A model generated the notes under the pieces. That model was given only the letters and a program-made list of their open reading frames with translations. It ran no database searches and had not been told where the DNA came from. A stretch of 33,788 nt of DNA from Deltaproteobacteria bacterium (GTDB lineage: Bacteria > Desulfobacterota > Syntrophobacteria > BM002), in contig JAJDNL010000095.1 of NCBI GenBank assembly GCA_022340745.1, positions 1 through 33,788 of the forward strand. Direction: 5' to 3'. A program made the translations under genes and the position numbers. Below, piece by piece: positions 1 to 33,678 of the stretch. Position 1 is the stretch's first letter; every line of letters starts with the position of its first letter.

Positions 1-3000
1 CCAACTGTTCACTGTACTTCAACAGAAACGGCAGAGTGACCTTTAATTCCCCTTTTTCCGGCTCCGGCAAGGTCCAGGCACGGGTGACATCGGGGATGGC
101 AATGGCGGCTGCCACCCGAGAGGGATATATTACTGATATGAGCACTACCATCATCACTAGAATCATGGCCGCAACTCCTGCCAAAGATGAATAGTTCACC
201 GTAATTCCCTGCCAGAGTGAGGTAGTGGCGAAAAGACCTGCACAGGTTTGAGCCAGAAGGTAACCCAATACTACGCTGATCACTGCGAAGGCCAGCGCTT
301 CGGCAATAAAAAGGAAAGAGACGTGAGAGGGCGCCAACCCCACCGAGGTGTACACCCCAATTTCTCTTTTGCGTTCGTACACGCTACCGATCATGGTATT
401 CAGCACGATAAGTACGGAAATTAACATGGGGATGAGGATGTTGGGCACGCCGCTGTAACTCAGGGCATCGGAGGCGTTATACATGAAGGTCCCCTGACTT
501 TCTCCGGTAAAAAGGGTGAGGCCAAAACGGTCCACCAGGTTTCGGGCGATGGTCCTCGTCGTTTCAGGGGACTCGGGCTTTATGGCAATGGCCTTGAGAG
601 CCCCACCAAAGGCCATGAGAGTCTGATACGGCATAATTACGGTCAAATCTCCGGGTATATGTTCATAGCGGCTTTGAAAGGCCTGCACATCCTCCCCGGC
701 CTCTATGGCCTCCATCTCAACCTCGGTAACCTCCATCGCCGCTTCGCTTGGAAATATCACAGGTGTAAGGGGCTCACCATCCAAATCCGCATGGGTTTCC
801 AACTCCTCACCCCGGAAGCAACCAACCACTTTAAAGTCCATGCCCCAGAACGAGATCGTAGCCTTTTCAGGCTGCTGCAACGAAATGCCCAGGCTGCGCG
901 CCAGTCTATCAGATAGTAGTACCACTTGCCGTTCGCCCTTCCGAAACCAGCGCCCGCGGCTCAGGATACTCCCAAGCTGACTCACCTCGGGCTCCAGATA
1001 GTTCAAGCCCACCACCCCGCTTGCCAGAACTTCCTTACCCTCCATATGGATGGGAACTACCGTCGCCCTGGTGCGATCCTTGGCTTCCAGCCATACCCTT
1101 GGCACCACTACTGCCTGGCCCTGGAATTTGTTCTCTACTATGCCCAGAGCTTCCGGCGGCAGGTTGTCCCAGTCGAGGATTTTCAGAAGGAGACCTTGAT
1201 AGGGGGATTGTTCTTTCAGCCGCAGACGACCGCGATGCCGCATGCTCTTAACGCTGGTGAAGCTCATGATGGTGAAGGTCAGGATGATGAGGGTGATACA
1301 GGTAAGTGCGGTCCGGATAGGCCGACGTCGTAAGTTACTCACTCCCAGCACAAAAGCAGCCGCGAATGCCTTGGTCCGGCTTATCTCAGAGCCTTTCATG
1401 TGACTGGCTCGCTGTTGGAGCAGTACCATCTCCTGCTCAAAACGACCCGTAATAATCAAAGCGACAATCACTGACAAACCGAGGATGAAGAAGGCAAGGA
1501 TTACCACGAGAGGACTGTAGGTTAGTTGAAATGCGGGATGCACAGAGTAGATAAGACCTATGACCACTCCCAATATAAGCAAAAAAGCAACGATCCTTTT
1601 GTGGATGTCCACAAAAGAAAAAAGCAGACGCTCCAGGCAGTAAGAGAATGGAACGAAAAGAGCTATATAAAAAAGCACCCCGAAAAGAACGTCCTTCTGT
1701 GTTCGTTCCACATCGTTGTAGATACGGCTGGCCAAAGCCCAGGAGGTTCTTGCCTCCTCCATGAAGCGATCGTACTGGTAACTGTCCAATGCTTGCTCAG
1801 CGCTCTCCAGAGCCTCAATTCCTTCACGTTGGAGAGAGCGAATTCGCTCATTACTTATACCGTGTTTTTCTAAGTTGGCTATCCTGGGCTGTAAGAGATT
1901 CCACATGTCGCGAGCAACCAGGTATTCTGTGGTCGGAAGGATTGGCCAGTTTTCGGCGCGATATCCACTGCCCTCGGGCTTGGAGGGTGCAGAATTCAGC
2001 AAAACCAGCTTGCGTTTGAGCACAGTATCCGACAGGGTCAGTTTGAACGGTGTAATTGGTTCCAGAAAAACATTGGCAATAGTCGAGGAGCCGGTATCAA
2101 TTCTACTCCACCAGTAGCGTAGGGGTGTGGCCTCGCTCCGGCCGTCTATTAACTTGATCTTGGTCAGGTAACTAAAGGTACGGGGTTCCAGGAGGGCAAA
2201 AAGGGTGGTAACTCGACAGGCAAACATGACCAGGTCAGTCTCCATAAAGCTGCGTCTCATCTTAACCCGGTAGGCTGATATGCCGGTCATAGCCTTATCA
2301 ATAGCCCAGATGATCTCACCACTTTCTTTATCAAAACGAAATCCTTCCAAAATCGCCTTGTGAACCGTGTGCTTGCTGTCGGCCAGACCCCGTACGTGAA
2401 ACAAACCGGCAGTGTCCACCATGCTATAAAACAAACTGGGTCCCTGGTAAGTAAGAATGAGAGTTCCAGGGGCCGGCTGATCAGGAAATAACTCTCCTTG
2501 ACGGATGAAGTTTGCTCGGCCGCTGAGCGTTGAAAAACCTTTAAGAGGACGCCGGTCGGAAACCAATTCGGGCTCCTCTGCTAATTTCAGAACTAAACCT
2601 GAGATCAGCCGGCCCTGCTGCTCCAGATATTCCCAGTCCACATTTTTCGGCTTGTCAAAGGGTGTTCCCCACAGTGGACGGCCATCGTGAGTTGTGACCA
2701 GACTGAAACCTAATATTCCAGCCAGAGCACTAACCTCACCCCCCAGTGCCGGATGATCAGGAAGGTAGCTCTGCCAGGGGCGCAGCGGACTGGGTCGCAA
2801 TGTATCCCGAAAGAAACGGCGCAAGCCCAGCTGTTCTTCTACTTGGCGGCTGCAACGATTCAGTATCCGGTCAATGGTCGCATAGGTCGATGTGCGGTTG
2901 ATTTGAGGTCGCAATTCATACAGCCAGCCATAATTAAAACCGCCAACCCCATCGCCATGACTGGAAAGATGTAGAGATATGAAAACGGTGAGTTCATAGT

Positions 3001-4372
3001 CACTGAAAAATCTTCGCAACCTGCGAGCGCTTTTTAGACATTTCAATTGTTCCCGGGCGTCATCGAGAACAGCCTGATTGCCTCTGATCGCTGCTGGAAT
3101 CAGTTCCCTCAACACCCTCCTTTCCTGAAGAGTAACATCTTGATAAGACCCGCGCCAGTCAAGCTGCCGCAGAACAAATCGTCTGTCCGCTAACTTCCGA
3201 ATCAGAGCTTGCTTATCATCTGCTTGCCTTTCCAAGCGGAGTTGCGTCAGTCTTTGACTTAATGTCTCTACTTCTCTTTTAATCTCCTCGGCCAGTGCTT
3301 CTCGCAAGCGTTCAGCTGATGTTTCGTCTAACGTATCAAAGACCACTGGTGGCTCAAGTGCTGCCAGAGCCTCCTCAGCCCGTTCAATGCGAGCTTTCAG
3401 CTCCCTTCGCAGGTTTTTTCGTTCTTTGCTTCTGGCCACAAGAGGCCAGATGAACTCCCGCATCCCTGCTAGACCTTGAGCATGTCCACTGGTCGCCATC
3501 AGCAGCACGGATCTAGCCGGTGGATGATCACGAAGGCGACGTGCCAGATCCAATAAAGCGACGACGCTCGTGGCCTCGTCAGCACCGGGAGACATTCCTG
3601 GCACCAAGGCAGTGCTGTCATAGAACGCTTCTACCACCAGAAGCTGCTCTTTGAGGACTGCGTCTTTACCCTCAATCAATGCGTAAATATTCTCACCCTG
3701 GACCCGTCGCCAGCCACCGTTGGAAGTAAGGAGTACGTCAGGGGCGACCAGACCGCTTTCAGCAGCCTCGAAAGAGCCGAAGACTGTTCGTGCCTGAGAA
3801 AGTGGCATCCATAAGCGTGGAAACTCTACAGAGGTCAGCTCGTATTTATCCTCAAAATTCCATTTTGTTGTTGGCCCCCGATCCACGTATATCAGAGCTT
3901 TTGCTCCAAGCGTGGCCGCATTGAGCCAATTCTTACCGGAATCCAACTCCATCAGGATGATACTGCCTTTCACCTTCATGCCATTGAAATTGTGGAGTTG
4001 ACCGGCTCCCACATAGTAAAGCGGTCCCTTAAGACCGGAATCAGGGGTAGCTTGCGGACTGAGGGCATTGAGCCGCAAAGGTTTGATTGGAACTCGGTCT
4101 CCCTTCACAGTGAGATAGGCGGACTGGTATTGGGTGACTGGCAGCAGGAATCGCTGTCGTCCTACACGTTCAATTCCCAGATCCCTGAAACTTCGTGCAA
4201 TTATATCCGCCGCCTTTGCGCATCCTGGAGTTCCCGTACTCCGGTCTCCAAGTTCAGCGAATTGCTGAATCAAAGTCCGGTTGGAATGAGCGGCAACTGC
4301 AACCTGAGTTAATAACAAGGATAGGGCGGCAAACAGAGACAAGAAACCAATCCCATGCCTCAACTTTGGCAT
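1..4372 (-). CDS. M28-peptidase-like ectodomain fused to FtsX-type ABC permease (3' end off the window)
   Basis: I translated the minus strand by hand. It stays open for 1,457 codons and leaves the window without a stop. Residues 1-28 look like a signal peptide (MPKLRHG then a hydrophobic stretch ending VAVAA). Residues about 247-590 follow the M28 metallopeptidase layout (AFYDS, PGADEATS, GHAQGLAG, then a late THDGRPLWGTPFDKP segment). The zinc and catalytic residues look replaced: F250 for the usual His, E266 for Asp, H297-A298 for the Glu pair. A highly charged, probably coiled-coil stretch (about 315-460) interrupts this domain. Predicted membrane helices start near 895, 927, 954 and 1021. 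They are followed by about 270 periplasmic residues, then a classic FtsX core (VLNTMIGSVYERKREIGVYT, near 1320) with helices near 1311, 1352 and 1400. The frame is also open upstream of 4372 into repeats. I chose 4372 because the signal peptide begins there, but no clear ribosome site is visible. It probably works with the ATPase and short permease upstream. Substrate unknown. Confidence 0.85.
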   Translation of the reverse strand, partial: MPKLRHGIGFLSLFAALSLLLTQVAVAAHSNRTLIQQFAELGDRSTGTPGCAKAADIIARSFRDLGIERVGRQRFLLPVTQYQSAYLTVKGDRVPIKPLRLNALSPQATPDSGLKGPLYYVGAGQLHNFNGMKVKGSIILMELDSGKNWLNAATLGAKALIYVDRGPTTKWNFEDKYELTSVEFPRLWMPLSQARTVFGSFEAAESGLVAPDVLLTSNGGWRRVQGENIYALIEGKDAVLKEQLLVVEAFYDSTALVPGMSPGADEATSVVALLDLARRLRDHPPARSVLLMATSGHAQGLAGMREFIWPLVARSKERKNLRRELKARIERAEEALAALEPPVVFDTLDETSAERLREALAEEIKREVETLSQRLTQLRLERQADDKQALIRKLADRRFVLRQLDWRGSYQDVTLQERRVLRELIPAAIRGNQAVLDDAREQLKCLKSARRLRRFFSDYELTVFISLHLSSHGDGVGGFNYGWLYELRPQINRTSTYATIDRILNRCSRQVEEQLGLRRFFRDTLRPSPLRPWQSYLPDHPALGGEVSALAGILGFSLVTTHDGRPLWGTPFDKPKNVDWEYLEQQGRLISGLVLKLAEEPELVSDRRPLKGFSTLSGRANFIRQGELFPDQPAPGTLILTYQGPSLFYSMVDTAGLFHVRGLADSKHTVHKAILEGFRFDKESGEIIWAIDKAMTGISAYRVKMRRSFMETDLVMFACRVTTLFALLEPRTFSYLTKIKLIDGRSEATPLRYWWSRIDTGSSTIANVFLEPITPFKLTLSDTVLKRKLVLLNSAPSKPEGSGYRAENWPILPTTEYLVARDMWNLLQPRIANLEKHGISNERIRSLQREGIEALESAEQALDSYQYDRFMEEARTSWALASRIYNDVERTQKDVLFGVLFYIALFVPFSYCLERLLFSFVDIHKRIVAFLLILGVVIGLIYSVHPAFQLTYSPLVVILAFFILGLSVIVALIITGRFEQEMVLLQQRASHMKGSEISRTKAFAAAFVLGVSNLRRRPIRTALTCITLIILTFTIMSFTSVKSMRHRGRLRLKEQSPYQGLLLKILDWDNLPPEALGIVENKFQGQAVVVPRVWLEAKDRTRATVVPIHMEGKEVLASGVVGLNYLEPEVSQLGSILSRGRWFRKGERQVVLLSDRLARSLGISLQQPEKATISFWGMDFKVVGCFRGEELETHADLDGEPLTPVIFPSEAAMEVTEVEMEAIEAGEDVQAFQSRYEHIPGDLTVIMPYQTLMAFGGALKAIAIKPESPETTRTIARNLVDRFGLTLFTGESQGTFMYNASDALSYSGVPNILIPMLISVLIVLNTMIGSVYERKREIGVYTSVGLAPSHVSFLFIAEALAFAVISVVLGYLLAQTCAGLFATTSLWQGITVNYSSLAGVAAMILVMMVVLISVIYPSRVAAAIAIPDVTRAWTLPEPEKGELKVTLPFLLKYSEQL

Positions 4373-4488
4373 TTTCACTGATTCTGCTACTCTTTTCCTA
4401 TGGCAGATCCATGTCATGGCCATTAGTTCGCGAAGTCGCCTCTCGCATACGGCTAGTAATTGTGGGTAAAGAATCCGGCCTTGGAATG

Positions 4489-4960
4489 CCCCCTGTGGGA
4501 GCTTCAACGGTCTTTTTCCTCTGGCGGCAGTCTGCCGGAGTAGTGGAGCATTGTAAAATATCAAATTCCAAGCACCAAACCGGGGCCCCGCCCAGATGGT
4601 GGGGACTCCGAAGGACAAACCGGGAACCCACCCGAAGGGTGGGAGTCCGAAGGACAAACTGGGAACCCACCCGAATGGTGGGAGTCCGAAGGACAAACCG
4701 GGAACCCACCCGAAGGGTGGGAGTCCGAAGGACAAACCGGGAACCCACCCGAAGGGTGGGAGTCCGAAGGACAAACCGGGAACCCACCCGAAGGGTGGGA
4801 GTCCGAAGGACAAATCTCAGGGTTTCAGGTGTCGGGTGTCAGGTGTCAGGAAGGAAAAACAAAAAAGCTGAAACCTGAACACTGAAACCTCAGTCTTTGA
4901 GATCGGCAAAGCCATTGAACTCTGGTTTGGCCCCTAAGGACCAGGTTTTCGATTTTGAAC
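4489..4960. repeat. Long copy (A) of a dispersed intergenic element
   Basis: This 600-base gap between the ATPase and the giant permease gene holds no convincing gene. It shares ordered blocks with positions 24858-25085. These are a C-run/G-run hairpin, GGTCTTT...GGCAGTCTGC, CCAAGCACCA, GGTTTCAGGTGTCGGGTGTC, CTGAAACCTGAACACTGAAA, GCCATTGAACTCTG and AAGGACCAGGTTTTC. Compared with the other copy, this one carries an extra tandem array in the middle. The element ends a few bases from the stop codon of the minus-strand ATPase gene. Confidence 0.8.
4607..4815. repeat. 39-bp tandem repeat, five full copies plus a partial one
   Basis: Units begin at 4607, 4646, 4685, 4724 and 4763, and a truncated sixth starts at 4802. 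Copies are near identical; the second differs at two positions. Each unit contains two perfect mini-palindromes with the same three-base loop: GTCC-GAA-GGAC and CCCACCC-GAA-GGGTGGG. The period is a multiple of three, so several frames stay open across it. I treat those frames as artefacts of the repeat, not genes. Confidence 0.95.
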
Positions 4961-4968
4961 TATGTGGG

Positions 4969-5706
4969 CTACCCCCGGTGTGCAATTTCCCCCACCGAAA
5001 TGGAAAGTTGTTCACGCTCTTCGACCTTGTCTATACGGCCATCTCGAATCCAGACGACACGATCCGAAACACTGAGCATCTTGAAATCATGGGTGGCTGA
5101 AATGACGGTCACACTGTTTTCTTCACTCAAACGCTTGAGCAGTTCGATGATCTCTTCTCCTGTGGTCAGATCAAGATTCCCAGTGGGTTCGTCGGCGAGG
5201 ATGATGGCTGGATCATTTGCCATAGCCCGAGCAATTGCTACCCTTTGCTGCTGGCCTCCAGAAAGCTCGAAAGGCTTGTGCTGAAATCGATCTCCCAAAC
5301 CCACCACCCCCAGAAGTTCCAGACCTTTCTCTACCGCTGCATCATTATGCATCCCAGCAAAAATCATCGGCAAAGTAACGTTCTCTAGAGCTGTCATGAC
5401 CTGAATCAAGTTGAAGGTCTGGAAGATATAGCCAATCTTGCGGCAGCGAAGCCAGGCCAATTCATACGCATCCAATTGGGCAATATCCACTTCGTCGATA
5501 AAGACCTTGCCGGATGACGGTTTATCCAAACCACCTATCATATTGAACAGAGTACTCTTCCCTGATCCCGAAGGCCCCATGATGGAAAGATACTCACCGG
5601 AGTAGATTTCCAGATCAACGCCCCGGAGTGCCTCCACGTCATGTTTTCTCAGTTTAAAAATTTTGGTAACTCCAGAAACTCTTACTATGCTGTGGGAATT
5701 TGACAT
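4969..5706 (-). CDS. ABC transporter ATP-binding protein, LolD/MacB type
   Basis: This 245-residue protein has the length of a stand-alone LolD/MacB/FtsE-class ATPase. Walker A is GPSGSGKST (44-52), the signature is LSGGQ (148-152) and Walker B is [11 protein letters not shown] (169-179, catalytic Glu 173). An H-loop follows in SATHD. I chose the ATG at 5706 (MSNSHSIV), which has GGGAG upstream. An upstream TTG at 5796 would add 30 residues that do not resemble the family. Such ATPases power FtsX-type permeases that act on periplasmic or outer-membrane substrates rather than import solutes. The likely partners are the short FtsX protein upstream and the giant FtsX fusion downstream, both on the same strand. 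The 242-base gap to the upstream permease shows only a short repeated word (AAAATGCCTA) and no clear gene. Confidence 0.95.
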
Positions 5707-5948
5707 GGCTACTCGGTCGCTCCCGCCACCACTAAATGGGCTAGTTGTTCGTATTGTTTCTCCACGTTTTCCATTATGAGTGAACCTAAATGCCAAAATT
5801 GCCTAGAATGTCTAAAATGCCTAACGTTTGGATGCATCCATCCTTTTAAGAATAAGTTAATCTGTTTTGTTAACAGCCCTGTTGCTTTCGACAAAGAATT
5901 CAGAAATTTTAGACACTTTAGCTCATTCTATCTCACTGACCTTCAGAA

Positions 5949-6635
5949 CTACTGCTCGACCCTCATTGCCTCTACCGGATGCATGCGGGCAGCGACAATT
6001 GCTGGATATATCACACCCAGCAGGCTCAAAACGCAGCCGACTGTCAGAGCAAAAACAATGGACTTGGCCACTGCCAGCCAATAGACATGTTTCCAGGCAA
6101 CCAAGCCGAAGCGGATAATACTGTTCAGTAGAGCGGCTACAGTGCCCAGCAGGGCACCAATCCCTGCCCCTGCCAACCCTTGCATGCCCGCTTCCAAAAC
6201 GAAGAGACGCAAAACAAAGCTATCAAGCGCCCCTAAACACTTGATCGTGCCGATCTCACGAAAGCGTTCGGTCACCGCCATGAGTTGAGCATTAACAATT
6301 CCCACCACGCAAACCAACAGTGAGAGAATAACTATCCAGCGTTCCTTGGCACTGCTGCCCGTGGAAGTGGCTCCAGGTTCCAAATCATAGCCGGCTTGCA
6401 TCAGAGCCTGACGATAGGTGGGATCCTGAGTCTGCAGCAAACCATTGGCCGTGTCAGTCCCCACACGCACAAAAGTTAAAAACGAAACGCCCAAAATAAA
6501 ACTCACGGTGGTGATCATGGAACGGAAAAATCGGACGCGGATACTCTTCAGGCTGATTTCAAGAGATTTCATAAAAGGGAGCACTACCTGCCTGGAAATC
6601 TCAGTCCTTTTATTTGCAGATTTGATCACCTTCAT
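5949..6635 (-). CDS. Short FtsX-like ABC transporter permease
   Basis: A 228-residue membrane protein with helices near 39-57, 99-118, 147-170 and 191-215. The conserved FtsX segment is visible as MAVTERFREIGTIKCLGA after the second helix, and the C-terminus ends in the typical ...P.EAMR form (MHPVEAMRVEQ). Full MacB/LolC-type permeases have a periplasmic domain of roughly 200 residues between helices 1 and 2. Here only about 40 residues lie there, so this is a stripped-down half permease. The giant fusion downstream could supply the ectodomain of the pair. The start could instead be the internal ATG at 6572 (MKSLEISLKS), where the family-like sequence begins. Neither start has a good ribosome site. 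Confidence 0.88.
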   Translation of the reverse strand: MKVIKSANKRTEISRQVVLPFMKSLEISLKSIRVRFFRSMITTVSFILGVSFLTFVRVGTDTANGLLQTQDPTYRQALMQAGYDLEPGATSTGSSAKERWIVILSLLVCVVGIVNAQLMAVTERFREIGTIKCLGALDSFVLRLFVLEAGMQGLAGAGIGALLGTVAALLNSIIRFGLVAWKHVYWLAVAKSIVFALTVGCVLSLLGVIYPAIVAARMHPVEAMRVEQ

Positions 6636-6972: not shown

Positions 6973-7788
6973 TTAACTTTTTACCACATACCCTTCCCTT
7001 AAGAGGGTGTCCACATGCACAAGGCGGGGAAGATTGCGTCGTTTGAGTTCAGACAGGAGTAATTCCAAGAAATCAAAAGCTGCATTGTTCATGAGCTGAT
7101 GGTGAATCATGATGCCACAGAAGCCGTTGCCAAGGCCTTTCCTGAGTTCTTTGAAAAAGTTTTGCCACCCACTTTCACCATCTCTCTCTTTTCTCGTATG
7201 AAGATCCACATTCACCGGGTACTCGGTGAGTGCAGCAGAGGCTGGCGGCTGGGCACCTAGATTGCGGGAAAGCGCCTGGTACCCTAATTCCTTGAGAGCC
7301 TTGAGGGTTTCAGAATCGCAGCGGTTCCAAGGCGGAGTAAAGGCTGGGGTGAATGAATCACCCAGGAGTCTGTTCAGCCGCTGGAAGCCCGTCAGCACGT
7401 CCTTCCGCTTCTGAGAAAACGACCTGCTTGAACCAAACTCTGCCTTCCTTCCTTGCGTCTCGTAATTGAAATGCCGCCAGCCATGCTGTATCCAGCACCA
7501 TAAGGAGTGGTTTCTGCGGCAAAGCTCAATAATTCTCTGCCATCGAGTTTCCGTAAGCCAAGCTGGCACCACGGCCAAGGTTAAAGGCACCTGTTGTTTA
7601 CCGAAGATATCGACCAACCTGGCTAATCTTTGCCCCGGCACAGCCACATCATCCGCTCTGAAGAAAACATTACTATCACCCCCGTGTGACAGTTCAGTTT
7701 CACCTTGATCCAGACAATGATGTAACCGGCGATGGATGTCGGCCGGTATGTTCTGCCAGAGCGCAGCGGGATATTTCTCTGAAGTCAT
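6973..7788 (-). CDS. Polysaccharide deacetylase-like protein (CE4 / NodB-like)
   Basis: A 271-residue protein without a signal peptide. It has the metal-binding pattern of CE4-type deacetylases in a divergent form: FFRADD (D46, D47) in place of TFDD, an H-x3-H motif HGWRH (H102, H106), FTPPWNR in place of the usual RPPY-type motif, and a late IMIHH. It would remove acyl groups from sugars, perhaps on a lipid-linked or intracellular glycan because no export signal is seen. Its ATG overlaps the upstream glycosyltransferase stop by four bases, with a strong GGAGGAGGG upstream. The two are therefore almost certainly co-translated. The exact substrate cannot be told. Confidence 0.82.
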   Translation of the reverse strand: MTSEKYPAALWQNIPADIHRRLHHCLDQGETELSHGGDSNVFFRADDVAVPGQRLARLVDIFGKQQVPLTLAVVPAWLTETRWQRIIELCRRNHSLWCWIQHGWRHFNYETQGRKAEFGSSRSFSQKRKDVLTGFQRLNRLLGDSFTPAFTPPWNRCDSETLKALKELGYQALSRNLGAQPPASAALTEYPVNVDLHTRKERDGESGWQNFFKELRKGLGNGFCGIMIHHQLMNNAAFDFLELLLSELKRRNLPRLVHVDTLLREGYVVKS

Positions 7789-8969
7789 GGCTTTCTACCC
7801 TCCTCCTGATCACACCACTCCTCCAGCCACCGAGTTGTCACCTCGGCTCCAGCCAAATTGACCAAAGGCTTCACGGACCCTCTTCCAGCCATGAGGGCTT
7901 TCTCCATCAGGACCGCCAGTCGAGTCGGTTCCAGGTCCTCTTGGTTCAACAGCGTTAAACCGCCGAGGGCTGCAAGTTTTTCCGCCCGGAGTCGCTGCTC
8001 TTGATTTTGAGCGAATGGCCACACCAGCGATGGGACTCTCGCCGCCAATATATTCATGCAGGTATTGTAACCCGCCATACTGATGGAAAGATCAGCGGCT
8101 GCCAGATAGGAAAGAAATTCAGTTGTAAATCTGGCCAACTGTACTTTTGGCACTGAGGCTGCCTTACCCTGTAGATCGGAAAAATCTCCCTCAGCCATAA
8201 ACGGCCCGGTGAAAACGCACAGCCGCAATTGTCTGGACTTAGTTAGTCGAGCATGAGCATCCAACACTGTCTTCAGAAGATCCGCCCCTACTCTTCCTCC
8301 TCCAGCGCTCGCCACAATCAGCGGCTCGTTCTCTTTGAGTTCTAGTCGCCTCTTTATGATTGTAGCATCGTCGCCACCTGGCCGGGCTGTTACATAGCCT
8401 GTGTACACCACCGGTATTTTGATATCAGCCGTTCTTGCAAAGGTCTCATCCAGAGAAACCAGGGTCGCATCGGCGTGTACCAACAACGCCCCAAAATACT
8501 TGTTGAGTATCTCCAGCACTTTGCGTTCATAAAACTCTTGTTCTTTCTTTTCCACCAAAATGTCGCGGAGGCTGCAGACTACTCTGGTAGAGCCGAAATC
8601 ACCTCGGTGAATTGCCTTTAGGATTGGGAGTAACTCGAAATGGAACCGTTTTCGCCCAAACGGATACAATTCGACCACAAAAAGGTCGGGAGCGATTTTT
8701 TCAAACAAGGAATAGAGAAGATTCGTGCGTTCCTCCTGGACTTCCTCCAGGGAACGGTTTTTTTCGGTTGGGAAAATGGTGCTGAACCCTGAATCCATCT
8801 GTAACCCCGGTAGTACATATTCACTTACATGCGAGGGTAATTCCGCAGCCACTGGAGGTCCGCCGCTCACGAAAACCAGTTGATGACGGTGTAGTGCCCG
8901 GGCAATCTCCAGACTTCGGAAGTAGTGGCCTATACCCAGGACGTGTTGGCAATATTGAATGATTCTCAT
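7785..8969 (-). CDS. MurG-like (GT28-fold) glycosyltransferase
   Basis: A 394-residue protein with a two-domain GT-B layout. The N-terminal loop GIGHYFRSLEIARAL matches the glycine-histidine loop of MurG-like enzymes. The middle has VASAGGGRVGADLL at the start of the nucleotide-sugar domain. Near the C-terminus MAGYNTCMNILAARVPSLVW followed by QNQEQRLRAEKL is typical of the GT28 donor-binding region. It resembles the 411-residue protein at 12724-13947, so the two are probably paralogous. The start ATG has no Shine-Dalgarno site and sits in a stuttering AT-rich repeat. It overlaps the deacetylase gene by four bases, suggesting that the sugar it transfers, or the product, is then deacetylated. 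Donor and acceptor are unknown. Confidence 0.85.
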   Translation of the reverse strand: MRIIQYCQHVLGIGHYFRSLEIARALHRHQLVFVSGGPPVAAELPSHVSEYVLPGLQMDSGFSTIFPTEKNRSLEEVQEERTNLLYSLFEKIAPDLFVVELYPFGRKRFHFELLPILKAIHRGDFGSTRVVCSLRDILVEKKEQEFYERKVLEILNKYFGALLVHADATLVSLDETFARTADIKIPVVYTGYVTARPGGDDATIIKRRLELKENEPLIVASAGGGRVGADLLKTVLDAHARLTKSRQLRLCVFTGPFMAEGDFSDLQGKAASVPKVQLARFTTEFLSYLAAADLSISMAGYNTCMNILAARVPSLVWPFAQNQEQRLRAEKLAALGGLTLLNQEDLEPTRLAVLMEKALMAGRGSVKPLVNLAGAEVTTRWLEEWCDQEEGRKP

Positions 8970-9080: not shown

Positions 9081-9683
9081 TCAGATCTCTTCATTCAGCC
9101 TCTGGACCTCGAAACCCGCTCCATTATAGCTCAGCCAGTGCAAACGATAAGGTTTTATCAGGGCCGGTTCATCCGCTAAGAACTTTCTGCCCCACAGCCG
9201 ATAGAGCAAACATCTGATGACTCCCCCATGGGTAATCACCAGGATACGCTTGCCCCTCATCTTTTGCGCAGTATCAGCCAGCGCTTGCCGACTACGCTGC
9301 AAAACTTCCAGACGACTTTCTCCATCTAAGGGCCTGAAGTCCCAGCCCAGTTTCTCCTGATCCTTGAGTTCACTCGTGTTGAGGAGGTCGCTGACTTTAC
9401 TGCCTGACCAACTACCCCAATCCTGCTCTCGCAGTCGGGGCTCCAGCGAGCAGGGGAGCACCAGACTATGGTTTATCAAGGTAGCTGTGTGGGTCGCTCT
9501 GCCAAGATCACTAGCCAGCATGTAATCCAGCTGATGTCGCGCCAGGGCACATCCCCATTCCCTCGCCTGTTGCCTGCCGCTGAAAGTGAGAGGGGCATCC
9601 TGCTGACCCTGGATACGCTTCTCGCGGTTCCATGTGGTCTCAGCGTGTCGCATCAAGGCGAAATAAGTGAGCACGAAGGCCAT
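9081..9683 (-). CDS. Histidine phosphatase superfamily protein (phosphoglycerate mutase-like)
   Basis: A 200-residue protein of the usual length for the family. The N-terminal catalytic motif is LMRHAET (His 13), an RHA variant of RHG. The second half has LREQDWGSWSG (E86, the usual acid position) and VITHGGVIRCLL (H152, the second catalytic His). It would remove phosphate from a small molecule or sugar phosphate. It lies inside a run of glycosyltransferase genes, so a sugar-phosphate or glycosyl-phosphoglycerate substrate is a reasonable guess, but the sequence does not decide this. GGAGG touches the ATG at 9683 directly. A GTG at 9674, nine bases after GGAGG, may be the true start. Confidence 0.9.
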   Translation of the reverse strand: MAFVLTYFALMRHAETTWNREKRIQGQQDAPLTFSGRQQAREWGCALARHQLDYMLASDLGRATHTATLINHSLVLPCSLEPRLREQDWGSWSGSKVSDLLNTSELKDQEKLGWDFRPLDGESRLEVLQRSRQALADTAQKMRGKRILVITHGGVIRCLLYRLWGRKFLADEPALIKPYRLHWLSYNGAGFEVQRLNEEI

Positions 9684-9734: not shown

Positions 9735-9883
9735 AATGGTAAGCAGTGAGCAGTGAGCGGTAAACAATTCATCTGTTTGACTAATTTTCTAATTCTCTTA
9801 TTCTCTAATAATCCTATCCTGTCCTCTGCCTGCTCCCAGCTTCATTTCCCCATGCTCTATGCTCTATGCTCTATGCTCTATGC
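9735..9883. repeat. Stuttering intergenic repeats, including (ATGCTCT)n heptamers
   Basis: The gap contains GTAAGCAGTGAGCAGTGAG-type words (from about 9737), then CTAATTCTCTTATTCTC words. From 9851 it has at least four copies of the heptamer ATGCTCT. The heptamer run extends into the 3' end of the glycosyltransferase gene and supplies its stop codon. No gene is seen here. Confidence 0.85.
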
Positions 9884-11019
9884 CTCTTCGGGTTTTGCCT
9901 TTCAACCAGCCCCAGCAAAATTTCCTCGACTACGCGGTAATTACTCTCGAGATCGTGTTTGCTCCGTACGCAACTACTTGCGGCCGCTCCCATCCGTTTT
10001 CTCAAAACCTGATCAGCCAGTAGCCGGACAATGGCCTCATTGAACTCTCTGGCATCAAAAGGGGGAACCAAATAACCGCAGACGCCATCTTCCACCACCT
10101 CCGGTACCCCACCGTCTGCAAAGGCCACTACAGGGAGCCCGCAGGATTGAGCTTCCAAGAAAACCATGCCCAGTGACTCACGAATGCCCGGGAAGACAAA
10201 CAAATCCCCCGCGCTGTAAAAGCGGTACATCTCCTCCCGTGCTACCTTGCCAAGAAATCGAACTCGTCCAGGAAGGCAGGAGTCAGCCATTTGGCGAAGA
10301 TGGCGCTCTTCCTTACCTTCTCCCGCTATCACCAGATACAGGGGGACATTCTGGCTGAAAAGCTCACCACAGGACCGAATCACCCAGGAAAGTCCTTCGC
10401 TTTTGACCCCTGGACGGAACATGGCGGCGGTAAGCACCACAACCCCTTCAGTTATGTCCCACTCTTGTCGCAGTTGCTTTCTGAATCTTGCATCAAAACT
10501 AAACTGCTCTGGCAAGATTCCTGGGACCACGTAGGTGAGACTTTCTTCTGGCACGATCCTGCCTAGATTAACAAAATCTTCTTTCCTGTTGGTGAAAACG
10601 TGGTCGGCAGCCAGAAGCGCTCTTCGGTTCAGGACAAAACCGGCCCACGTATGCCAGCGCTTACGCCTCTTGGTGGAATAGATGCCCTGAAAAATCGTGT
10701 AAGGCAGCCCCAAACGGCGACTGCAGTCGGGGCCAAGGAGATCGGGTGCTTTGTAGTAGCTGTGGTAGGTAAGCCAAAGATCAGCACCCAGTCTATTACA
10801 GCTCTGCAGCGAACGACTGCGAGCTCTGAGGAACTGAAGCCAGTGCCAAGGCTTCCAGTAAATCCAGCGGCTTCGGAACTGGCTGATGCTTTCCAGACAA
10901 TGACCACGTCCTTGGAGAAACTCATACAAGCCAGTACCAATAACCAGATCACCAGAAGGATGGGGGTGTCCCAATGGTTTTAACGGAGCATAAAACGCTA
11001 TGCGCAACGAATCAGACAT
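9871..11019 (-). CDS. GT4 family glycosyltransferase
   Basis: A 382-residue GT-B enzyme with the C-terminal donor-sugar motif of GT4, FPGIRESLGMVFLEAQSCG, followed by LPVVAFADGGVPEVVEDG. The N-terminal acceptor domain starts LRIAFYAPLKPLGHPHPSGD. Such retaining enzymes move a sugar from a nucleotide donor to a growing glycan or lipid carrier on the cytoplasmic side. No signal peptide or membrane segment is seen. The last residues (RHRA, then TAG) are encoded by heptamer repeat DNA, so the original C-terminus may have been trimmed or extended. The gene lies 65 bases downstream of a second GT4 gene on the same strand. No ribosome site is clear at the ATG. Confidence 0.92.
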   Translation of the reverse strand: MSDSLRIAFYAPLKPLGHPHPSGDLVIGTGLYEFLQGRGHCLESISQFRSRWIYWKPWHWLQFLRARSRSLQSCNRLGADLWLTYHSYYKAPDLLGPDCSRRLGLPYTIFQGIYSTKRRKRWHTWAGFVLNRRALLAADHVFTNRKEDFVNLGRIVPEESLTYVVPGILPEQFSFDARFRKQLRQEWDITEGVVVLTAAMFRPGVKSEGLSWVIRSCGELFSQNVPLYLVIAGEGKEERHLRQMADSCLPGRVRFLGKVAREEMYRFYSAGDLFVFPGIRESLGMVFLEAQSCGLPVVAFADGGVPEVVEDGVCGYLVPPFDAREFNEAIVRLLADQVLRKRMGAAASSCVRSKHDLESNYRVVEEILLGLVERQNPKRHRA

Positions 11020-11073
11020 GACAATATTTAAATGCTAGATTGAGCAATTCAGATAAATAGAAATCAGGTTTTT

Positions 11074-11092
11074 TGCGCTATGCTCTATGCGC
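11074..11092. repeat. Short heptamer repeat at a gene end
   Basis: GCGCTATGCTCTATGCGCG on the plus strand. The minus-strand reading gives GCATAGAGCATAG, whose first TAG is the stop codon (11085-11087) of the GT4 gene. This is the same arrangement as at 9871. Confidence 0.8.
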
Positions 11093-12335
11093 GCCTCAGC
11101 CCTGCTTGTTCAAATACTGCAGCGAGCTTGTGAATGAGGGTGCGGTTATCGAAATCTTCCCTTACTTGTTGGCGTGCGGCGGCGATAACGCGGTGACGCA
11201 AATTCTGATCAATTAACAATCGGACCATAGCTGCGGCCATTGCTTCAGGTTGACCAGGTTCCACAAGTAGGCCGGTGCACCCGTCTTCCACAAGCTCTGG
11301 GATAGCTGAAACTCGAGTGGCCAACACCGGCACCCCCATGGCCATACTCTCGAGGAAAACATTGGGAATCCCATCCCGGTCACCGTTACTGGCCACCTCG
11401 CAGCCCAAGACGAAAAGATCCGCTTGCCTATACTCATCAATCACCCTGTCGTGCGGCTGGGTCCCCAACCACCGGCAAGCATCACCAAGCCCTAAATTGT
11501 GTAGATGATTTAGAATTGGTTGCCGCTCTTCCCCGTCACCGATAAGTGTGTAGCGTACAGAGTATCCCTGGTCGAGCAGAATGCTCAAGGCACGAATCAC
11601 CGTGCGTAACCCCTTTTTTTCAACCAGGCGGGCAATGCTTAGTATCCGGTACGGAGGAGAGGGTTCCCGCGGCTCGGAAGGCTCATCAAAAAGTCTGGCG
11701 TCGATGCCGTGATAGATGCAGTGAATGGACGGACCCCCTGGAGTCAACTCTTCAAGAAAACGGCGGTTGTATTCGGTGCAGGTCACCACAAAGCTCGCCA
11801 GAGCAATTTTCTCCTTCAGCTGGGCGGGAGTCGAAGTATAGATATCCTTGGCGTGGGCGCTAAAACTGAATGGTAGGCCGCTCAGTTTGTTGGCGAACAG
11901 GGCCACCGAGGTGGGCGAGTGAGCAAAGTGAGCGTGCAGGTGACAGACGTTCGTGCCGGGAAGCAGGGCGTGAACTAGATATCCTGCCTGGAGTAGGTGT
12001 TTAATGGTGGCAACTTTCCTGGAACGGCGCAGGCGCCTGGCCATGACCCGGAAGGCTTCAGAATAGGTCTCCGGACGCTTTCTTGCCAGCAGGACATTAT
12101 GGTAAAGTAGACGAGGCAACGGGGCCAGGAGGGTTTCGGGAAGATAGTCTACCGAGGCCTGTATGTCTTTTACGCTTTCGTGGGTAAATTGCTCCCGCGG
12201 CTGACGCATGGGAAAAAGATGGAGCGGGAAACCAAGATTTTCCAACAAGTTAATCTCATTGGATATGAAGGTCTCACTGATACGGGGATAGCCTTTGAGT
12301 ATATAGCCTATTACTCTCTCTCGGCCTTCAGTCAA
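11085..12335 (-). CDS. GT4 family glycosyltransferase (colanic-acid WcaL-like)
   Basis: A 416-residue GT-B protein. The N-terminus IGYILKGYPRISETFISNEI is the pattern of WcaL/ExoB-like exopolysaccharide transferases. HLHAHFAHSPTSVALF and FSAHAKDIY are typical of the acceptor half. ILSIARLVEKKGLRTVIRAL opens the donor half, and DGIPNVFLESMAMGVPVLAT carries the GT4 Glu motif. The start is a TTG with AAGGA upstream, because no ATG fits the conserved N-terminus. The C-terminus ends in heptamer repeat DNA. The likely role is adding a sugar to an exopolysaccharide or lipid-linked oligosaccharide. The cluster in view lacks flippase, polymerase and initiating transferase genes, so the product stays unknown. 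Confidence 0.92.
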   Translation of the reverse strand: MTEGRERVIGYILKGYPRISETFISNEINLLENLGFPLHLFPMRQPREQFTHESVKDIQASVDYLPETLLAPLPRLLYHNVLLARKRPETYSEAFRVMARRLRRSRKVATIKHLLQAGYLVHALLPGTNVCHLHAHFAHSPTSVALFANKLSGLPFSFSAHAKDIYTSTPAQLKEKIALASFVVTCTEYNRRFLEELTPGGPSIHCIYHGIDARLFDEPSEPREPSPPYRILSIARLVEKKGLRTVIRALSILLDQGYSVRYTLIGDGEERQPILNHLHNLGLGDACRWLGTQPHDRVIDEYRQADLFVLGCEVASNGDRDGIPNVFLESMAMGVPVLATRVSAIPELVEDGCTGLLVEPGQPEAMAAAMVRLLIDQNLRHRVIAAARQQVREDFDNRTLIHKLAAVFEQAGLRRA

Positions 12336-12723: not shown

Positions 12724-13947
12724 TTAGAGCTGCATTACCTTTCGCTCTCTGGTGACCTCTCCCCGGAACTCGGCTAGCCTCTGCCGCATGACCTCAAGTC
12801 CGGTAAAGTCGAATTCCTGTATGGCCCGGTGATAGGGCTGCGGATTTTCAAGCATGGCCAGCAGCTTGTCTCTCAATAGAGCGGGGCTTACTCGGCGCCA
12901 TGGTATAAAGTCAGCCAGGTTCCGCTCATGCAAAATTTTAGCCCTGATCAACTGCTCTTGCCGCGGTTGCTCTCGAGGGATTATGACAGACGGTTTTCCC
13001 TGGCTCAGAATCTCGCAAACCGTATTGTACCCCCCCATGCTCACCACAACATCGGCAGCCCCAATCAATCTTTCCATGCGTCTATAGAACCGGTAAGTAC
13101 GTATCGAAAGCTTTCTGCTTCTGTTGAAAATTTCCATCCTCATCTTCTTGGGCATGAAGGGCCCGGTAACCATAACTGTTCGAAAAGGAGGTTGTCCTCC
13201 CCATTCTTCCAGCATTCTGAGATATGCATCCATATGAGCATAGCCGTCGCCACCGCCCCCAGTTGTGACCACCACCAATTTCTCTTCGGGTTCAAGTCGC
13301 TGTTCCCAGCGCACTTCGCGCACCTCTCCAGGCTTGGTGACCCGGCGCGGAATGTAGCCGGTAAATACTATCTTCCTGCTGATATTTTCCGGAATATCAT
13401 ACTCACGAATCGGGTCATAAAAATCCTGATTGCCATACACCCAGATTTCTGAATAGTATTGTTCCAGCACATCATAAACGCTCTTTTCTTCCCAGTCTCT
13501 TTTCGTACTAGCGGCATCGTCCATGATGTCCCTGAGACCAAGAATGGTCTGAGTGTCTGGATGACAGCGTCTCAGCCACTGCAGGGTCGGGATGATCTCC
13601 CTTTTGAGGCCAAGAGGAGCCTTGTCTACGATAAACAGGCGTGGTTGGAAAGCCTTGGCAGTACTGGTAATGATGGTTTGTCTAATTTTTAAGGCATGAC
13701 GGGTGTTTATCTTGATGGAAAGGGGAAGGTATTCCTCGTTCGTCATCTTGATCATTCCGGGTACCCGGACAAAATCGATTTGTCGGGGAAAACTGAATCG
13801 GCCGACGATTGGACTCCCGGTGAGAATGATGGTATTGACATTGGTGGCTCGCAGGTGGGCGGCAATGGCTAGGGTTCGACGAATGTGCCCGAGGCCATAG
13901 GTGTCGTGGGAGTACATCAGAATGTTATAGGTGGACTTGCGGGCCAT
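12724..13947 (-). CDS. Predicted MurG-like glycosyltransferase
   Basis: A 407-residue protein. The N-terminus MYSHDTYGLGHIRRTLAIAA is characteristic of a family of predicted GT28-like transferases. LVVVTTGGGGDGYAHMDAYL opens the donor domain. MGGYNTVCEILSQGKPSVII and PRQEQLIRAKIL form the nucleotide-sugar site. The start is the ATG at 13947, with GGGAG five to nine bases upstream. A TTG four codons earlier is less likely. It is similar in design to the protein at 7785-8969. It is followed by its own terminator and reads away from the NamZ gene across a 265-base divergent gap. The acceptor is unknown. Confidence 0.87.
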   Translation of the reverse strand: MARKSTYNILMYSHDTYGLGHIRRTLAIAAHLRATNVNTIILTGSPIVGRFSFPRQIDFVRVPGMIKMTNEEYLPLSIKINTRHALKIRQTIITSTAKAFQPRLFIVDKAPLGLKREIIPTLQWLRRCHPDTQTILGLRDIMDDAASTKRDWEEKSVYDVLEQYYSEIWVYGNQDFYDPIREYDIPENISRKIVFTGYIPRRVTKPGEVREVRWEQRLEPEEKLVVVTTGGGGDGYAHMDAYLRMLEEWGGQPPFRTVMVTGPFMPKKMRMEIFNRSRKLSIRTYRFYRRMERLIGAADVVVSMGGYNTVCEILSQGKPSVIIPREQPRQEQLIRAKILHERNLADFIPWRRVSPALLRDKLLAMLENPQPYHRAIQEFDFTGLEVMRQRLAEFRGEVTRERKVMQL

Positions 13948-14081
13948 GCATACTCCCAATTAGATCTCTGTTGATGGAGCAGTGCTCATGAAAGTGGTGT
14001 CTTTTAAAGGCCCACTTAGCTCATCCCGGCAAACACCGCGACTCTACTAGAATACCCCTGAAAGGTCAAGGAGAAGCCCCC

Positions 14082-14109: not shown

Positions 14110-14212
14110 CATAGCTTAAAGCGAGCCCGTCTCGCCAAGAATTGTGCTCAGTACTCAGTGCTTGGTGCTTCGTATATAATCCTTAGTGCCTATTTTCGGA
14201 GGGATTACCCTT

Positions 14213-15385
14213 ATGGCTGCTGTAGAGCTCGGCATAGACAACCTGCTAGCATCACAGCCAAACTGGCTGCGAAGCGCACGGATCGGCTTGCTTGCCAACC
14301 AGGCCTCTGTGGACAACCGTCTCCGCCACACTCAAAATCGACTGCTCGAGGCCGGAGCCAATCTCGCTGCCATCTTTGCCCCTCAGCACGGTTATCTTGG
14401 TGAACAGCAGGCCAACATGATCGAGTCCGATGATTTTATCGACAAGCACCTGGGCATCCCTGTGTTCAGCCTCTACAGTGCGACCCGGCAACCCACAGAC
14501 GCTATGCTCTCACACATTGACATTCTCATCGTTGATCTACAAGACGTTGGTACCCGAGTCTACACCTTCGCCTCCACCTTGGCTTTATGCATGGAAGCCG
14601 CCAGGGATAAAGATGTTAAAGTGGTGGTTCTGGATCGACCAAACCCCATCGGCGGCAATCGAAGTGAAGGGAACCTTCTTGACTCTGAGCGCAGCTCTTT
14701 CGTTGGGCGTTTCCCGATACCTATGCGCCACGGTCTCACTGTAGCAGAGCTGGCGCTCCTTTTTAATGAAGCCTTTGGCGTTGGCGCCCCTTTAGAGGTC
14801 TTTCACCTGAATGGCTGGAGACGTTCGATGCTTCATAGGCACACCGGGCTGTATTGGGTTCCCCCCTCACCCAATTTGCCCACCCCAGAGTCAACACTCG
14901 TATACCCTGGCCAGGTCATACTAGAGGGTACCAATCTCTCAGAGGGCAGGGGCACCACTACACCATTTGAGCTTTGGGGTTCCCCATACCTTAAACCTGA
15001 ACTGGTTACTGAACGTCTCGCCCAGGAGGACTTGTCCGGCCTGATATTGCGGTCTGCCCGTTTCACGCCCTCATTTGACAAATGGACAGGCCAGAGCTGC
15101 GCTGGCTTCCAAATTCACCTGACCGATCCTGAAACGTACAATCCGTACGCCACCTCTCTCACCCTGGTGCAGGCGGTTCTGACTACACACCGCGACGAAT
15201 TCCAATGGGCTTCGCCACCTTACGAGTATGAATTCAACCACTTACCCATAGAAATCATCCTGGGCAGCGTTAACCTGCATGCCCAATTGGAGGCAGGAGC
15301 TCCGATAAAAGATCTGCAGCGAAGCTGGGAACCCCAGTTGCGTGATTTCCGCAGACTTTGTGAGCCCTATTTACTCTATTCCTAG
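14213..15385 (+). CDS. NamZ-like exo-beta-N-acetylmuramidase (DUF1343 / GH171)
   Basis: A 390-residue protein of the DUF1343 family. Bacillus NamZ in this family cleaves N-acetylmuramic acid from the non-reducing end of peptidoglycan fragments. Family blocks are visible: RIGLLANQASVD (23-34), IFAPQHGYLG (54-63), VDLQDVGTRVYTFASTL, LDRPNPIGG, EGNLL, PMRHGLT, VILEGTNLSEGRGTTTPFEL and GFQIHLTDP. I chose the ATG at 14213, which has GGAGG ten bases upstream. A GTG at 14186 is less likely. No signal peptide is visible, unlike secreted members, so it may act on recycled wall fragments in the cytoplasm. The stop codon TAG overlaps a GCCCGG repeat. Confidence 0.9.
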   Translation: MAAVELGIDNLLASQPNWLRSARIGLLANQASVDNRLRHTQNRLLEAGANLAAIFAPQHGYLGEQQANMIESDDFIDKHLGIPVFSLYSATRQPTDAMLSHIDILIVDLQDVGTRVYTFASTLALCMEAARDKDVKVVVLDRPNPIGGNRSEGNLLDSERSSFVGRFPIPMRHGLTVAELALLFNEAFGVGAPLEVFHLNGWRRSMLHRHTGLYWVPPSPNLPTPESTLVYPGQVILEGTNLSEGRGTTTPFELWGSPYLKPELVTERLAQEDLSGLILRSARFTPSFDKWTGQSCAGFQIHLTDPETYNPYATSLTLVQAVLTTHRDEFQWASPPYEYEFNHLPIEIILGSVNLHAQLEAGAPIKDLQRSWEPQLRDFRRLCEPYLLYS

Positions 15386-33039: not shown

Positions 33040-33042
33040 GTG

Positions 33043-33678
33043 ATGTCCAGAGTCTACCTGGTGCGTCACGGCCAGACAGCCTGGAACGTGGGCGAGATTT
33101 TTCGCGGTCGGGCAGACATCCCGTTGGATGAGACTGGGAAGCATGAGGCACACCTGGCCGGTGAGACACTCAAGGACGAAACGCTCCATGCTGTTTACAG
33201 CAGCCCCCTTTCCCGCTCCATGGAAACAGCCGACAATATAGCTAAATTTCATGATATATCTGTAACGCCCCTTGATGCCATAGTCGATATCAGTTATGGA
33301 GAATGGGAGGGATTGGGCAATCAGGAGGTTCAGCAGAAATATCCCGAACTCCATGCCCTTTGGCTCAGTGAACCCCACAAGGTCATCTTTCCCGGAGGTG
33401 AAAGCCTTGATGAGGTGCGCTCCCGCACTATGGCTGCCCTGGAAAACCTGTTGGTAAAGCACCAGGACGAGAACTTTGTCCTCGTCGCCCACCGAGTGCC
33501 GAACAAGGTAATCTGCTGTGCCGTGCTGGGACTGGACAACAGCCACTTCTGGCGCATTCAGCAGGACACCGCTTCCACCAATCTATTTGTCTACCAGAAC
33601 GGACAATGGATCATATCCTACCTGAATGACACCTCTTATCTCAAGTCGCTGGGGAAAGAAACTCTGGCTGACTTTTAA
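33043..33678 (+). CDS. Histidine phosphatase family protein
   Basis: A 211-residue phosphoglycerate-mutase-like phosphatase. The catalytic motif is YLVRHGQTAWN (His 9), the acid position lies in DISYGEWEG (near E87) and the second His is in LVAHRVPNKV (H150). In most members the residue after this His is Gly; here it is Arg. Sequence features such as GRADIPLDETGKHEA resemble alpha-ribazole or phosphoserine phosphatase-like members, but the substrate is not evident. The start is the ATG at 33043 with GGAGGG upstream inside the U32 gene. A GTG one codon earlier is also possible. It is translationally linked to the U32 gene. Confidence 0.9.
   Translation: MSRVYLVRHGQTAWNVGEIFRGRADIPLDETGKHEAHLAGETLKDETLHAVYSSPLSRSMETADNIAKFHDISVTPLDAIVDISYGEWEGLGNQEVQQKYPELHALWLSEPHKVIFPGGESLDEVRSRTMAALENLLVKHQDENFVLVAHRVPNKVICCAVLGLDNSHFWRIQQDTASTNLFVYQNGQWIISYLNDTSYLKSLGKETLADF

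Follow-up and report, generated by a model that had tools for sequence, protein, structure and literature searches.

Type VII ATP-binding cassette (ABC) systems, the class of MacB and LolCDE, use mechanotransmission to work on the periplasmic side (PMC5985334, PMC12646458). One of them, YbbAP-TesA of E. coli, has been proposed to extract lipids (PMC12646458), and DevBCA exports glycolipids (PMC5985334). The locus described here lies in a stretch of 33,788 nucleotides (the window), which is an entire contig (JAJDNL010000095.1, here C41) of the 3.9-Mb assembly GCA_022340745.1 of a Deltaproteobacteria bacterium. At its left end, on the minus strand, a giant FtsX permease subunit (2..4417) joins a PA domain and an M28 aminopeptidase fold that has lost its zinc ligands to an FtsX core, next to the genes for an ABC ATPase and a minimal second FtsX permease. 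The reading that we favour, with somewhat better than even confidence, is that these proteins form a highly asymmetric ABC machine of type VII, and that its dead-peptidase head serves to handle a glycan or glycolipid of the envelope, the product of the glycosyltransferases that accompany the unit.

Domain organisation of the giant subunit

The preliminary description had placed a secreted M28-like domain in the same chain as an FtsX core, with a LolD-type ATPase as neighbour. This is borne out, the M28 fold being confirmed by Pfam, an AlphaFold model and Foldseek alike. Pfam recognizes Peptidase_M28 (5.8e-9, residues 228-314) and FtsX (2.7e-11, residues 1314-1422), both above cut-off, and a PA domain below it (0.013, residues 115-172). 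The chain, all of it encoded on the minus strand, opens with a signal peptide (4292..4417) identified by hydropathy, with a hydrophobic core and an AVA-A type end; this region is poorly conserved in sequence, yet hydrophobic in the relatives examined. The PA domain and the first half of the M28 fold follow (residues 28-313; 3434..4291), as supported by Pfam, phmmer, AlphaFold with Foldseek, the motif table and the control peptidases discussed below. The fold is interrupted by a long helical, coiled-coil-like insertion (residues 314-456; 3005..3433; helices at residues 289-430 of the AlphaFold model), the least conserved part of the mature chain, and is completed by a second half (residues 457-600; 2573..3004) supported by phmmer, the motif table and AlphaFold with Foldseek. 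Next come a well conserved region predicted by AlphaFold to be beta-rich (residues 601-808; 1949..2572), for which no relative was found in PDB or Pfam, and a helical hairpin or stalk ahead of the membrane (residues 809-890; 1703..1948; AlphaFold).

Three extra transmembrane helices (residues 891-976; 1445..1702; hydropathy and AlphaFold) precede the FtsX core. Helix 1 of the core (about residues 1005-1042; 1247..1360; hydropathy) is separated from helices 2-4 (residues 1306-1425; 98..457; PF02687 at 2.7e-11, MacB 5gko at 2.3e-5) by a large periplasmic domain, as in type VII ABC systems. Profile matches to this domain (residues 1043-1305; 458..1246) suggest a MacB/LolC type: MacB 3ftj (E=0.0016), 5xu1 (0.0071) and 5lil (0.018) and LolC 6f49 (0.057), all modest scores obtained from sequence comparison only. 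The chain ends in a cytoplasmic domain of about 180 residues without Pfam or PDB relatives, the start of which (2..97) was placed by alignment and the remainder of which is encoded on another contig of the same genome (C262, 4836-5387). Many positive charges follow the third extra helix and some lie between FtsX helices 2 and 3, while none is found in the two short loops with a predicted periplasmic location, a distribution that fits the topology.

This layout refines the preliminary description in three respects. The "about four helices" ahead of the periplasmic part are present, as three extra helices plus FtsX helix 1; the 270-residue periplasmic part is also there, its MacB/LolC-type nature having been missed; and the contrast drawn with relatives that carry small periplasmic domains has to be moved, since the usual MacB-type domain of about 260 residues is present and the novelty lies in the additional part of about 870 residues before it. 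As a fusion the gene is conserved and present in a single copy, and purifying selection acts on it: dN/dS ranges from 0.04 to 0.30 across all domains past the N-terminal segment, with about 0.08-0.20 in the M28 parts and up to 0.30 in the coiled coil.

An M28 fold without its catalytic site

The AlphaFold model of residues 27-990, computed with 30 orthologues as input, reaches a mean pLDDT of 88 and a pTM of 0.84. Its best PDB match by Foldseek is the aminopeptidase BSAP/YwaD (6hc6; E 1.7e-20, target TM-score 0.63), which phmmer also retrieves from the sequence (4.5e-8), and further matches are M28 proteins with a PA domain, namely PaAP, the transferrin receptor and glutamate carboxypeptidase II (GCPII). 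With PF04389 above cut-off, the model and the Foldseek matches agreeing, the region belongs to the M28 fold, which answers the doubt that the preliminary description had raised for residues 240-590.

The catalytic apparatus of the fold is gone. Ligand positions were assigned by alignment to known M28 enzymes and, in part, from general knowledge of the family. Across about 33 orthologues, at most one of the five zinc ligands (H, D, E, D, H) is kept per protein and the catalytic Glu is kept in none. In the window protein the HxD, ADD and EE motifs read FYD, ADE and HA. Among orthologues the His of HxD is replaced by Phe, Pro, Ala, Ser or Arg while the scaffold Asp is retained; the bridging Asp becomes Glu or Gln; the EE pair is lost; the fourth ligand Asp, still present in one orthologue, becomes His, Ser, Tyr or Asn; and the final His becomes Gly, Thr, Ser, Glu or Asp. 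In control peptidases of M28/M20 type taken from the same genomes, HxD, a motif of GADD/GAADM type, EE and the final His are all present; the fourth ligand could not be aligned in this comparison. An active M28 peptidase was rejected on this motif loss, the controls being intact. Judged by its sequence, the domain is a pseudopeptidase under purifying selection, in line with the pseudoenzyme suggested in the preliminary description.

Another possibility is that the M28 domain is still an enzyme, its metal or catalytic site having been remade. In its favour, two positions that once held ligands or catalytic residues are occupied by His in many orthologues (GHAQ, SLHLSSHG), and the scaffold Asp of HxD is kept. 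These His residues are not conserved in divergent orthologues, however, and the M28 region has no complete substitute site that is invariant, so that this explanation appears very improbable.

Integrity of the giant gene

On the minus strand, the frame stays open from base 2, at the left edge of the window, past 4372. The window holds 1472 codons of the gene, whose frame breaks off where the contig ends; the 184 codons that remain, with the stop codon, expected beyond the left edge, were found on C262 (4836-5387), where the genes for DUF6785 and U665 come next. Complete relatives measure 1,590-1,680 amino acids as a rule, longer open frames including untranslated upstream sequence. The two contig ends (window 1-106 and the end of C262) share a 102-bp overlap that is only 90% identical, which leaves the join inexact at the level of single bases. 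The ends are therefore probably strain variants, which suggests that the assembly mixes strains.

A contig that ends inside the gene and overlaps its neighbour imperfectly could raise the suspicion of an assembly artefact or of a chance fusion of peptidase and permease genes. The same full-length architecture nevertheless recurs in dozens of independent assemblies, including the single-contig genomes G161, G277 and G352, and the orthologues refute this explanation, to which we give a negligible probability. Nor is there a frameshift between residues 600 and 895, a possible flaw considered in the preliminary description: the segment 600-990 is 391 amino acids long in all nine orthologues measured, from independent assemblies. 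One orthologue (CP070692.1, locus L015) has a single in-frame stop after FtsX helix 1 (11049-11051) beyond which the frame resumes, either a recent loss or a sequencing error.

Orthologues of the giant were found at loci L006-L015 and L038-L063, and the start of the gene was set by alignment with orthologues. The start at 4372 given in the preliminary description is not conserved; because the orthologues have no Met there, it was moved upstream to a conserved ATG at about 4417/4423 (MAMTWICHRKR...), the orthologues beginning MTW.... Coding sequence upstream of 4423 was considered and rejected, as the frame there crosses a dispersed hairpin repeat. Six copies of this 39-bp unit, with the hairpin CCCACCCGAAGGGTGGG, lie between the ATPase and giant genes (4576-4814). 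The hairpin occurs at 79 sites genome-wide with at most one mismatch and a reversed control pattern at none; the unit is a dispersed REP-like repeat.

A conserved unit of five genes

In the loci examined, the gene order is small FtsX, ATPase, giant, DUF6785/DUF6784 protein, U665. Exceptions are contig breaks and a few rearranged loci; in G106 the DUF6785 and U665 genes lie about 15 kb further on and in G254 both are on another contig. A gene for a SurA-like PPIase stands between the giant and DUF6785 genes in G161 (L038, 13299-14324). The ATPase of the window (4969..5796, minus strand, likely ATG near 5706; PF00005 at 9.8e-35) is of the LolD/MacB type, and its Walker A, LSGGQ, Walker B and H-loop are intact in every orthologue checked. 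The second FtsX permease (5949..6635, minus strand; PF02687 at 3.7e-13) is minimal, with 228 residues in the window and about 220-240 in the examples read, and has a short periplasmic loop.

Several features place the unit in the type VII ABC (MacB superfamily) class: PF02687 scores above cut-off in both permeases, the giant has a MacB/LolC-like (Porter/Sabre) periplasmic domain, and the ATPase is of the LolD/MacB class with intact motifs. The LolD equivalog is the best model for the ATPase, yet it scores 220.5 bits against a cut-off of 307.75, and the small FtsX scores 42.5 against 362.45 for the LolCE equivalog. Since both fall under the curated cut-offs, the unit, as judged by the features tested, is a predicted member of the type VII class other than LolCDE.

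U665 (contig C262, locus L016, 353-2338) is a polytopic membrane protein of about 655-665 residues, 67-96% identical across the phylum set and without a match in Pfam, NCBIfam or PDB sequences. Orthologue identities correlate across the giant, DUF6785, U665 and small FtsX proteins (Spearman 0.86-0.95).

U665, and perhaps DUF6785, could be distant transporters of the OPT family, with the dead M28 head as a peptide receptor feeding them in the uptake or export of peptides or chelates. The M28 fold naturally binds peptide N-termini. Genome-wide, the OPT Pfam model finds the C-terminus of U665, in register with the OPT C-terminus, weakly in G277 (E 0.004) and G211 (E 0.008); hhalign aligns the same region, and a [DE]K[LM]x[FY]P-like motif is visible by inspection in both families. 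Neither U665 nor DUF6785, however, gives a significant hmmscan match to OPT (PF03169), the hhalign probability stays under 2%, and the local hmmsearch is not significant against reversed controls. These comparisons hint at a distant U665-OPT relation and are suggestive only. Transport of peptides or chelates would, moreover, leave the strict link with glycosyltransferases described below unexplained, and we regard it as unlikely.

Distribution across genomes

The sample comprises 395 genomes of one phylum, the Desulfobacterota. Four independent searches, for the giant (E<=1e-30), U665 (<=1e-5), DUF6785 (<=1e-10) and the glycosyltransferase GT28b (<=1e-60), return the identical 27 genomes, in each of which the giant exceeds a bit score of 700. 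The weakest positive for GT28b stands at 1e-96 and the best negative, in G014, at 6e-44. A second glycosyltransferase, GT4a, reaches about 2e-134 or better in 17 of 17 positive genomes and in none of 20 negative ones, the best of which scores 4e-95. The negatives used here and in a first look at GT28b were the same 20 genomes without U665, four of them judged by U665 alone. In G277 and G391, which are complete or nearly complete, over 1 Mb separates the glycosyltransferases from the unit, so that linkage does not account for the co-occurrence.

The fusion, whose spread beside a LolD-type ATPase the preliminary description left to be established, is found in 27 of the 395 genomes, with the ATPase as a conserved neighbour in the loci examined. 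The strict co-occurrence with DUF6785, U665 and glycosyltransferases goes beyond that description, as do the PA domain and the minimal second FtsX (5949-6635). U665 occurs in 35 of 56 genomes of the window's class. U665 was not found in the plasmid collection, and neither U665 nor the giant in viral contigs.

Sugar-enzyme neighbourhood

In the window, the minus strand carries, at coordinates above those of the unit, genes for a polysaccharide-deacetylase-like protein (DUF2334; 6973..7788), linked in a subset of loci, GT28b with its family-28 C-terminal domain (7785..8969; PF04101 at 9.7e-16), a protein of the histidine phosphatase family (9081..9683), GT4b of glycosyltransferase family 4 (9871..11019), the EpsE-like family 4 enzyme GT4a (11085..12335) and GT28a, a second glycosyltransferase with a family-28 C-terminal domain (12724..13959). 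Enzymes with this C-terminal domain include ones that act on lipid acceptors, such as MurG. Among the neighbours in loci without adjacent glycosyltransferases, which include regulators, amidohydrolases and others, no common partner was seen. A second histidine phosphatase (His_Phos_1; 33040-33678), a distant relative (27%) of the one in the cluster, is encoded far to the right beside a peptidase U32 gene.

G014 lacks the giant unit and has homologues of GT28a and GT4a beside a glycosyltransferase fused to an ABC exporter of the MsbA/PglK class. The fusion, with glycosyltransferase family 4, ABC_membrane and ABC_tran domains, is a single frame of 1046 residues (L098, 5024-8161). This arrangement hints at a membrane-linked product.

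The glycosyltransferase cluster adjoins, on the opposite strand, a gene for a NamZ exo-beta-N-acetylmuramidase (14186-15385), which brings into play an FtsEX-like regulator. FtsEX belongs to the type VII class and controls hydrolases instead of transporting, and binding is the role of M28-fold pseudoenzymes such as nicastrin and the transferrin receptor; the dead head could likewise serve as a docking platform, driven by ATP, from which a separate periplasmic hydrolase of peptidoglycan or protein is switched on and off, with no transport involved. In the syntenic loci examined, however, NamZ was not seen to belong to the conserved unit, and what is conserved beside the unit is not a hydrolase but two polytopic membrane proteins and glycosyltransferases. 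Such a regulator seems improbable to us.

A putative asymmetric ABC machine

In the reading we favour, the giant would be the large half of an asymmetric inner-membrane type VII machine, with the LolD-like ATPase as the motor beneath a heterodimer of the giant and the minimal FtsX subunit. ATP-driven closing of the FtsX stalks would move the MacB-type periplasmic domain, and this motion would pass, by way of that domain and the extra three-helix bundle, to the periplasmic head of about 870 residues. Because motor and FtsX core are canonical, such a mechanotransmission cycle is the likeliest one for the giant machine. The head, with its PA domain and M28 aminopeptidase fold, would bind or present something and not cut it, which is the likelier role for an exopeptidase fold without a metal site, as in the transferrin receptor. 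The machine would act as one unit with the DUF6785/6784 protein and U665, the polytopic membrane proteins encoded downstream, which may form a membrane path.

A glycan or glycolipid cargo is suggested by the glycosyltransferases that strictly accompany the unit, two of which have a family-28 C-terminal domain, and by the arrangement in G014. A more specific proposal, to which we grant slightly less than an even chance, is that the ATP-driven, extremely asymmetric transporter with its dead-peptidase head works with DUF6785 and U665, which may both be OPT-like, to flip, extract or export a glycan or glycolipid produced by the dedicated glycosyltransferase set, and so represents a transport system of a kind that has no name.

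Several points weigh against a glycan-handling machine. The cargo assignment is drawn from co-occurrence only; the genomes share ancestry, so that their co-occurrence is not fully independent, and they sample a single phylum; and the GT28b limit was chosen after a first look at the positive and negative scores. Glycosyltransferases adjoin the giant unit in a subset of loci only, and neither an outer-membrane partner nor a MacA-like adaptor was seen among the identified cluster genes.

If the proposal is true, the unit would be an undescribed machine for handling surface sugars or glycolipids. Four genes with identical distribution in 395 genomes, one of them often unlinked, yield a testable prediction of an envelope glycan pathway in Desulfobacterota, and both DUF6785 and the highly conserved, family-less U665 gain a genomic context for which no earlier description turned up in the literature covered.

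Comparison with known systems

The closest relatives of the head in sequence and structure, BSAP/YwaD and PaAP, share its PA and M28 fold and differ as active secreted zinc enzymes whose zinc motifs are kept. The transferrin receptor, also a Foldseek match of the head, resembles it in having a PA domain and an M28 fold that serves binding without catalysis. Nicastrin and GPAA1 are likewise eukaryotic M28-fold pseudoenzymes used for binding. Unlike the giant, none of these three is an ABC subunit or has an FtsX permease.

YbbAP-TesA is similar in being a type VII ABC system with extra helices and a periplasmic protein of hydrolase fold (PMC12646458). TesA, however, is a separate, active and unrelated esterase, whereas the enzyme fold of the giant is fused, of M28 type and without catalytic residues, so that the fused domain does not supply the active hydrolase of the YbbAP-TesA type, though a separate hydrolase partner may be encoded elsewhere. 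In YbbP, moreover, a single chain holds ten helices together with two MacB-type domains, unlike the giant. DevBCA-HgdD is a MacB-type ABC system tied to heterocyst glycolipids (PMC5985334), but it is tripartite, with an adaptor and a TolC homologue, and neither a peptidase-like domain nor DUF6785 or U665 is described there.

No literature was found on DUF6785 or on an M28-FtsX fusion, most subscription papers lying outside the search, and a fused pseudo-M28 head, an asymmetric permease pair and obligatory DUF6785/U665 partners were not found described. The unit as a whole has a fair chance of being a new kind of system. With MacB, LolCDE and FtsEX it shares a LolD-like ATPase, a four-helix FtsX core and a MacB/LolC-type periplasmic domain. 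To these the giant adds a signal peptide, the head of PA, M28 and beta-rich regions, three helices and a cytoplasmic C-terminal domain, while its FtsX partner is almost without a periplasmic part and two polytopic partners are always present. The type VII ABC class would thereby be extended to include a pseudoenzyme head fused to a permease, and a permease pair of strong asymmetry.

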